From assembly GCA_018064985.1 (NCBI GenBank), contig JAGHUE010000031.1:1-36245 (forward strand): a stretch of DNA of 36,245 nt. The letters are read 5' to 3'. Below the pieces are notes generated by a model, which saw only the letters and a list, made by a program, of their open reading frames with translations, was not told the DNA's origin and did not search any database. The first letter of the stretch is position 1. Each line of letters starts with the position of its first letter. The stretch is from Candidatus Colicola faecequi (GTDB lineage: Bacteria > Bacteroidota > Bacteroidia > Bacteroidales > Paludibacteraceae). Positions 17-2,365 of this stretch are shown one piece after another. A program made the translations under genes and the position numbers.

Positions 17-100
17 GCGCAGGTGGTGAAATTGGTATACACGCTACTTTGAGGGGGTAGTGGCTTCACGGCCGTGTGAGTTCGAGTCTCATCCTGCGCA
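17..100 (+). tRNA. tRNA-Leu (anticodon GAG)
   Basis: Acceptor GCGCAGG/CCTGCGC plus A discriminator; anticodon loop TTGAGGG in stem CTACT/GGTAG; T-arm GTTCGAGTC; long variable arm. Confidence 0.93.
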
Positions 101-102
101 CA

Positions 103-140
103 AAACAATCAGCCTCGCCAAACGGCGAGGCTGATTGTTT
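103..140. terminator. Bidirectional rho-independent terminator between tRNA-Leu and the convergent pspC gene
   Basis: 17-bp perfect stem AAACAATCAGCCTCGCC / GGCGAGGCTGATTGTTT, loop AAAC. Confidence 0.85.
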
Positions 141-161: not shown

Positions 162-1424
162 TTATTCTTCCGTTACTTCGAGTACGCCTTCCGAAGCACC
201 ATCTCCGAATTCGTCATCGAGTTGCTCGAGATTTTCCATCAGTATGGAATCTTCGAGTGTTCCTTCTTCTATCATCTGCTTGGCTTGCCCGAAAGTGATG
301 GTGTCGCCATTTACGATGATGGTTGCGTCTTCATCCATGTTCTCGAAAATGCGTTCCAACCGTTCGCCCAGATTCTCCATTTTCTCTTCGAACGAGTTGC
401 CTTCGAGTTCGCCTATCGATTTGCAGAAATTGATTCCGAAGATGAATAGGCAGATGAACGAGATGAGCCAGAGGATGATGGAAGTTGTCCAGAAGCCTTT
501 TGCCATCGGCTCATTCGTGCGATTGCGATGGATAGCCCAGGCTATCAGTACGATGATCGGGATAAGAATGGTCAGGATAGCTGCTAGTGCCCCGAACGCA
601 AATGAAGAGAATACGCCTCCGAGGTCAGCTCCCGGGAATACACCCATCAAAGCACCCATTCCGCCGAAAACCAGCCCGAATACAACTCCGAAGATAGCTA
701 CGATGAAAGGAAAACAGCAGATGCAGGCAATTGCAATTACCAGCACTTTCAGGCAGCCCCATGGGCCATCGCCTTTGTTCTGCTGCTTCAGATTGCCGTT
801 CTCGTCTACGTTCTCGCGAAGGCGTTCCACTTCCGCTTTGATATTCTCGGCCGATGGCTCTTCTCCTCGCATCTCCAGTCTGCGGGCTGCCGTATTGGCT
901 GCCGGAACGATCAGCCAGAGCAGCAGGTACAGGAAGAAACCGATGCCTTCGAGGAAGAGCAGAAGAGCTACTACGAGGCGAACCCATACGACGTCGATGC
1001 CGATCAGTTGTGCGAGTCCGGAGCATACGCCACCGATTACCTGGTGGTCGGTATCGCGGTAAAAACGCTTCTTGCGGGCCGGCTGTGCAGGTTGCGGTTC
1101 GGAGGTGGTGTTTGCCTCTTTGCCGTTTGCCGTTTCCGTTTCTTCCGAAGCCTCTTCGCCGTCGGTTATCATTTCGGGAGAACCGAGTTGGGCGGTTACG
1201 TCATTCACGAGATTGATGTTGACTACTTCGATGTGGCCGAACTTCAGATGCTGCGAGAAAAGTTCCGCGATACGGGCTTCGATATCTTGCATTATTTCGG
1301 TCTTGCTGTCGGAGTCTTCGAGATGCGACTCGATGCTCTTGAGGTATGCGTTGAGGATTTCGTATGCGTCCTCGTCGATGTGGTAAACGATACCGGCAAG
1401 ATTGATTGTTACTGTCTGTTTCAT
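162..1424 (-). CDS. PspC domain-containing membrane protein (420 aa)
   Basis: PspC-like segment RKKRFYRDTDHQVIGGVCSGLAQLIGIDVVWVRLVVALLLF..LLLWLIVPA followed by further hydrophobic segments; ORF track. Confidence 0.88.
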   Translation of the reverse strand: MKQTVTINLAGIVYHIDEDAYEILNAYLKSIESHLEDSDSKTEIMQDIEARIAELFSQHLKFGHIEVVNINLVNDVTAQLGSPEMITDGEEASEETETANGKEANTTSEPQPAQPARKKRFYRDTDHQVIGGVCSGLAQLIGIDVVWVRLVVALLLFLEGIGFFLYLLLWLIVPAANTAARRLEMRGEEPSAENIKAEVERLRENVDENGNLKQQNKGDGPWGCLKVLVIAIACICCFPFIVAIFGVVFGLVFGGMGALMGVFPGADLGGVFSSFAFGALAAILTILIPIIVLIAWAIHRNRTNEPMAKGFWTTSIILWLISFICLFIFGINFCKSIGELEGNSFEEKMENLGERLERIFENMDEDATIIVNGDTITFGQAKQMIEEGTLEDSILMENLEQLDDEFGDGASEGVLEVTEE

Positions 1425-1439
1425 AATGGTCAGTTTGTG

Positions 1440-1499
1440 TTAGATAAGTGAGCCGCAACTGATGAAAATGCTGATGGCGGCTATGACAATAGAGGTCAT
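1440..1499 (-). CDS. Putative 19-aa hydrophobic microprotein MTSIVIAAISIFISCGSLI
   Basis: ATG overlaps the padR TGA stop as ATGA; TAA stop lies 15 nt before the large pspC start; almost entirely hydrophobic. Too short for the ORF track. Confidence 0.5.
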   Translation of the reverse strand: MTSIVIAAISIFISCGSLI

Positions 1500-1822
1500 G
1501 GTTTATGTGTTATAGTGTTTATGGCTGTGCTGATGGAGTCCCATTCTTTCTCGAGCTCTGCGATGAGTGCCAGCCCTTCTTCCGTGATGCAGAAGTATTT
1601 TCGTGGAGGTCCGGAAGTGGATTCCTGCCAGCGGTAGCTGAGCAATCCTGCGTTTTTCATTCGGGTAAGAAGCGGATAGAGCGTTCCTTCCACGACGAGC
1701 AGGTTGGCATTTTTGAGTTCTTCGAGTATCTCGGTTGCATATACCTCACGGGATTGGATAATCTCCAGGATGCAGTATTCGAGGATACCCTTTCGCATCT
1801 GCGATTTGATGTTGTCTATCAT
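1496..1822 (-). CDS. PadR family transcriptional regulator
   Basis: 108 aa; KGILEYCILEIIQSREVYATEILEELKNANLLVVEGTLYPLLTRMKNAGLLSYRW..GPPRKYFCITEEG is typical PadR winged helix. Confidence 0.92.
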   Translation of the reverse strand: MIDNIKSQMRKGILEYCILEIIQSREVYATEILEELKNANLLVVEGTLYPLLTRMKNAGLLSYRWQESTSGPPRKYFCITEEGLALIAELEKEWDSISTAINTITHKP

Positions 1823-1931: not shown

Positions 1932-2123
1932 TTATGCTTCCTTGTTCGGCATGATGAGCGCGAGGATAATGTAGAGGATGAGGCCCGGGAAGCCGGCAAG
2001 GAAAGCGCTGCAGAGCGCATAGATTACGCGAACGATAGTAGGATCCATACCTGCATATTCAGCAATACCTGCGCAAACGCCTGCGAGTTTTTTGTCGTTG
2101 GACTTGGTGAGTTTCTTTTCCAT
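1932..2123 (-). CDS. Small PspC domain protein (63 aa)
   Basis: KKLTKSNDKKLAGVCAGIAEYAGMDPTIVRVIYALCSAFLAGFPGLILYIILALIMP. Confidence 0.9.
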   Translation of the reverse strand: MEKKLTKSNDKKLAGVCAGIAEYAGMDPTIVRVIYALCSAFLAGFPGLILYIILALIMPNKEA

Positions 2124-2246: not shown

Positions 2247-2277
2247 CAAAATTATATAAAAATTTAGAACTATGCAA
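2247..2277 (-). promoter_or_regulatory. Bacteroidetes-type promoter for the pspC-padR-pspC operon
   Basis: On the minus strand: TAATTTTG (-7, 2247-2254) and TTG (-33, 2275-2277) with a 20-nt spacer. Confidence 0.65.
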
Positions 2278-2365
2278 TACATAGTACTAGAAAAGTGTAA
2301 TATTTTGTGAAATAGATATTGTTTTTCGGTTTTTTGTTATGTTTAGGTTGCAAAATGCGTAAAAA

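Follow-up and report, generated by a model that had tools for sequence, protein, structure and literature searches.

A candidate hydrophobic microprotein gene on the padR stop codon of a PspC-type operon in Candidatus Colicola faecequi

The padR-pspC operon and its putative control elements

The DNA analysed here is a stretch of 36,245 nucleotides from Candidatus Colicola faecequi (contig JAGHUE010000031.1), referred to below as the window. On its minus strand lies an operon that runs from a promoter with a palindrome through a small pspC gene, padR, a short open reading frame (sORF) and a gene for a HAAS/PspC/LiaI-LiaF-TM protein to a hairpin. The first gene (1932..2123) encodes a PspC-domain protein of 63 aa (PF04024, E 7.6e-23) and padR (1496..1822) a PadR-like wHTH regulator of 108 aa, whose match to PF03551 (E 2.5e-17) exceeds the cut-off. 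The long pspC gene (162..1424) encodes 420 aa, in which a PspC domain at residues 119-175 (PF04024, E 3.7e-21, 75 bits) and a LiaI-LiaF-TM_PspC domain (PF22571, E 3.9e-8, 33.6 bits) both exceed their cut-offs; a candidate HAAS domain at residues 26-86 (PF22564, E 2e-5) falls slightly under the curated value. In the proteins of the window and of two relatives, G073 and G065, the match to PF22564 covers residues 26-86/88, with E-values of 2e-5 to 3e-4 that are slightly sub-threshold throughout. The matches to PF03551, PF04024 and PF22571 support the PspC-type membrane-stress setting that the original prediction, made from the letters of the window, had proposed for the sORF.

This operon appears to be the HAAS-PadR dyad, which was put forward in 2024 as a membrane-stress alternative to two-component systems (Ravi et al., PMC11237479). 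As in the HAAS-PadR-PspC/LiaI-LiaF-TM systems described there, a padR-like wHTH gene adjoins a gene for a multidomain PspC-LiaI/LiaF-TM protein, here with a sub-threshold HAAS match, a stand-alone small PspC is present and pspA is not nearby. Unlike those systems, the clade of the window adds a hydrophobic sORF at the padR stop, and its long PspC is without the C-terminal DUF2807/Toastrack domain, which is frequent there though not obligatory. Domain searches of the long PspC found no DUF2807/Toastrack in the window, G073 or G065; other members of the genus have it, and the loci L055 and L060, which carry the domain, stand against L053 and L006, which do not. The order of genes also varies within the genus, in that at several loci (L007-L011, L013 and L015) the gene for the small PspC sits after padR and before the long pspC instead of upstream of padR, so that the operon has been reshuffled.

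The palindrome AGTACTATGTATTGCATAGTTCT (2266..2288, minus strand) is a candidate PadR operator, and immediately downstream of it lies TAATTTTG (2247..2254, minus strand), which would represent a -7 element of the Bacteroidota type (TANNTTTG). The palindrome has a single close site in its own genome, where the next-best matches carry 3 mismatches, and it is kept at the same locus in relatives that include G092, G065, G202, G203, G287 and G294. With at most one mismatch it is present in 58 of the 358 family genomes, often beside padR-pspC; L005, L006, L160, L168, L188 and L191 are also among the loci that have it. AGTACTATGTATTGCATAGTTCT is probably the PadR operator, through which PadR would regulate its own operon, sORF included, and a single PadR-controlled promoter probably serves the whole operon. 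At the other end, 3' of the long pspC, the sequence contains a perfect 14 bp hairpin with a 4-nt loop and a T tract (102..137, minus strand), probably the terminator at which the operon ends. A tRNA-Leu gene (gag; 17-101, plus strand) faces the operon end, with this hairpin in between.

The short reading frame and its distribution

The sORF (1440..1499, minus strand) comprises 19 codons and reads MTSIVIAAISIFISCGSLI before its stop. Its ATG (1499-1497) and the padR TGA (1498-1496) share the tetranucleotide ATGA, CCATGA forming the 3' end of the padR frame, and its TAA (1442-1440) is followed by a spacer of 15 nt (1425..1439) that leads to the long pspC start. Both the overlap, whose coordinates were re-read on the minus strand, and the distance of 15 nt, taken from the window sequence, are confirmed as originally proposed. 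The hydrophobic, single-helix character ascribed to the peptide is likewise borne out: it has no charged residue, its GRAVY value is 2.2, and the summed octanol-scale transfer energies of -6.6 and -9.4 kcal/mol for it and its orthologue are membrane-favourable. A helix of 19 residues on its own is at the lower size limit for a membrane protein, and this counts against reading the sORF as a microprotein.

The orthologue was found in two MAGs, G073 and G092, where it reads MI[A/T]IIAALTTLVTSCITLFL before the stop, is 20 aa long, uncharged, has a GRAVY value of 2.3 and likewise begins on ATGA. The PspC of these genomes is 55% identical to that of the window, their padR tail exceeds that of the window by 7 codons, and four-fold sites, compared between the window and G073, are 51% identical in padR and 38% in pspC. 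Within the ORF, the DNA of the two lineages is homologous, with 26 of 53 positions matching after the ATGA (shuffled P 0.0005), which points to retention rather than convergence; the spacers that follow it, 15 nt in the window and 62 nt in G073 and G092, have no evident similarity. As proof of coding, similarity specific to the ORF frame was unsupported in these two lineages, since frame +2 is likewise open and equally similar between the window and G073; identity by codon position is 7/17, 11/18 and 8/18. Between G073 and G092 the ORF differs by one non-synonymous and no synonymous change, which counts against coding.

The distribution of the sORF was surveyed with the long PspC as query in 178 genomes from the genus, 358 from the family and 393 from the order, and with PadR in named genome contigs, many of these relatives coming from gut or rumen; one scan of viral contigs was added. 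The survey gave 185 distinct junctions behind padR, 34 of which contain ATGA. At 27 the HAAS/PspC gene itself begins on the ATGA, four have a polar or trivial short frame there (3, 7, 10 and 29 codons at L138, L177, L238 and L174), and the hydrophobic sORF starts on it at three, those of the window, G073 and G092. Among these loci L174, from another family member, has a basic ORF of 29 codons on the padR ATGA that is unlike the sORF, and at three loci of Alistipes MAGs (L079, L080 and L081) the padR-pspC gap is filled by a gene whose product, of about 320-360 aa, begins with what resembles a signal peptide. The sORF is absent from the remaining 182 junctions, nearest relative G065 included, and no further copy appeared among the genus, family and order genomes, the named contigs or the viral-contig scan. 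It is thus present in 3 of 178 genus genomes and in a single clade. Because a tree of PadR and PspC joins the window, G073 and G092 with a support of 0.99 and places the sORF-less G065 as their sister, the sequences indicate that the sORF arose once.

The expectation that the short frame would be conserved across related Bacteroidales therefore holds in part: start, length and hydrophobicity are kept in the sister lineage, but the ORF is confined to one clade and is not general in the order. Translational coupling, which had been suggested from the ATGA, fares similarly. The overlap itself stands, but it carries little weight, because the padR-pspC pair often has ATGA with pspC directly downstream, as the 27 junctions show, so that an overlap of this kind recurs in the gene pair; moreover, the distance from the sORF to pspC differs between the lineages.

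Coding, chance and other explanations

How much of this could arise by chance was judged against random sequence, 836 kb of DNA from the same genus with 672 gene ends, and simulated neutral drift. Random sequence of matching composition often contains an ATGA-started ORF of 15-24 codons (16-20%). A random ATGA ORF that also has GRAVY >= 2.0, a cut picked after the ORF had been seen, is expected at 0.1% for the composition of the gap and 0.01% for that of the region. Sixty of the 672 gene ends have ATGA overlaps and just three of these open an ORF of 15-29 codons; no unrelated hydrophobic ATGA-started sORF was present among the 60 overlaps in the 836 kb, the only hydrophobic one being the orthologue. 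In neutral simulations at 50% identity, a frame of 17-22 codons was retained in 16-25% of runs, and one of this length that also kept GRAVY >= 2 in 0.07-0.28%.

These levels bear directly on the possibility that a leftover ATG at an ATGA junction opens a meaningless short frame in both lineages. The frequency of similar ORFs in random sequence, the meaningless ATGA frames at the four junctions named above and the restriction to two lineages, whose similarity is without frame specificity, all speak for such an accident; the retention of a same-length frame with GRAVY >= 2 at a P of about 0.001-0.003 under neutral drift, next to a spacer that has preserved neither length nor similarity, speaks against it, and on balance we consider it unlikely. 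The sORF may instead be a cis-acting cistron, whose translation moves ribosomes from padR to pspC or shields the mRNA while the peptide is discarded. That the padR-pspC pair so often sits on ATGA directly would suit this, and the 15 nt from stop to pspC in the window equal the distance in the cis-acting minigene of axe-txe (PMC8708949). Against it, the spacer is 62 nt in G073 and G092, pspC has its own start with A at -3 in both lineages, RNA structure in the gap is not notable (z 0.07), and the persistent lack of charge and strong hydrophobicity would be left unexplained. The minigenes axe-txe mg2 and LEE1 ler are also short ORFs upstream of a gene, but they are 2-codon ORFs that act in cis by being translated, whereas the sORF keeps a length of 19-20 residues and its hydrophobicity. 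As the distance to pspC varies, a pure relay is less likely than a role for the peptide, and we judge it distinctly improbable.

Two further explanations would assign the peptide another kind of function. It could be membrane-active in the manner of IbsC, the 19-aa type I toxin, disturbing the membrane and so triggering the PspC system: size and hydrophobicity match, and overexpression of IbsC in E. coli specifically induces pspABCDE (PMC8309996). The Ibs/Sho peptides share with the sORF a near-wholly hydrophobic single helix of 19 aa as well as the psp link. The sORF differs from them in lying within an operon, joined by a stop/start overlap, with no Rfam match and no signal of an antisense antitoxin RNA, since terminator-like matches of the opposite strand, among them the one at 1479-1503, are at chance level (4 found vs 2.3 expected); a toxin of this kind is very improbable. 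Hardly probable at all is a miniature or remnant of a secreted lipoprotein. In its favour are Cys15 after the hydrophobic stretch in both orthologues (FIS-C and VTS-C), which resembles a signal peptide, the gene with a signal-peptide-like start in the same gap of some Alistipes, and the loss of DUF2807 from the PspC of the clade, but the n-region is without positive charge (no K or R) and a mere 4-5 residues follow Cys15 in either orthologue. An RNA element in the gap was rejected, as there is no notable structure and the Rfam matches are tRNA only, and so is an N-terminal extension of pspC, whose starts align with those of all relatives and whose frame relation to the sORF differs in G073.

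With similarity that lacks frame specificity or synonymous bias, the case for coding consists of the hydrophobicity and architecture retained in two lineages. Coding is likely from these features, and short of proven because the independent lineages are only two. That the sORF is a selected, translated gene, whether or not its peptide matters, seems reasonably probable on the same comparisons.

A putative membrane partner of the PspC sensor

Our preferred reading, to which we give a probability of about 0.45, is that the sORF may be a real, young, clade-restricted gene for an uncharged membrane peptide that is a partner of the PspC sensor or of the PadR-HAAS signal. Initiation in Bacteroidota, or re-initiation at overlaps, makes no use of Shine-Dalgarno sequences (PMC6728339), and A at -3 is a main determinant of initiation (PMC6847099). 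Because such an A precedes the sORF start in both lineages, as it does the pspC start, re-initiation or direct initiation at the sORF is plausible: ribosomes on the operon mRNA would translate it after re-initiation at the padR TGA/ATG overlap or from its own start. The uncharged peptide of 19-20 residues would then form a single helix inserted in the inner membrane and there tune either the PspC sensor or PadR-HAAS signalling. A role as a membrane partner appears most likely because the peptide would be made alongside PadR and the multi-helix HAAS-PspC-LiaI/LiaF-TM protein, and the sORF product probably acts on the PspC sensor as its partner or modulator. The small regulator or subunit of the module that the original prediction had in mind is a possible role.

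Proteins of the CydX, AcrZ and KdpF type are 29-49 aa long. They are small single-helix proteins with a membrane partner (PMC4325964, PMC7267776), like the one presumed here, and the genes of CydX and KdpF also adjoin those of their partners; they differ from the sORF in being larger, experimentally shown and more widely conserved. That peptides as small as the sORF product do act in membranes is shown by IbsC (PMC8309996).

It is possible, if doubtful, that a new microprotein took over the padR-pspC stop/start overlap and so added a helix to the HAAS-PadR-PspC system, perhaps in place of Toastrack. As the loss of DUF2807/Toastrack is common to the sORF-less G065, it is probably older than the sORF, and a causal tie between this loss and the origin of the sORF is speculation. 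If real, the sORF product would rank among the smallest membrane proteins known. With two orthologues in hand, the prediction is directly testable in cultivable Bacteroidota. The gene, if real, would give the HAAS-PadR systems, a little-studied alternative to two-component systems, a small additional part, and would mean that new membrane microproteins can arise by occupying the stop/start overlap of an operon.
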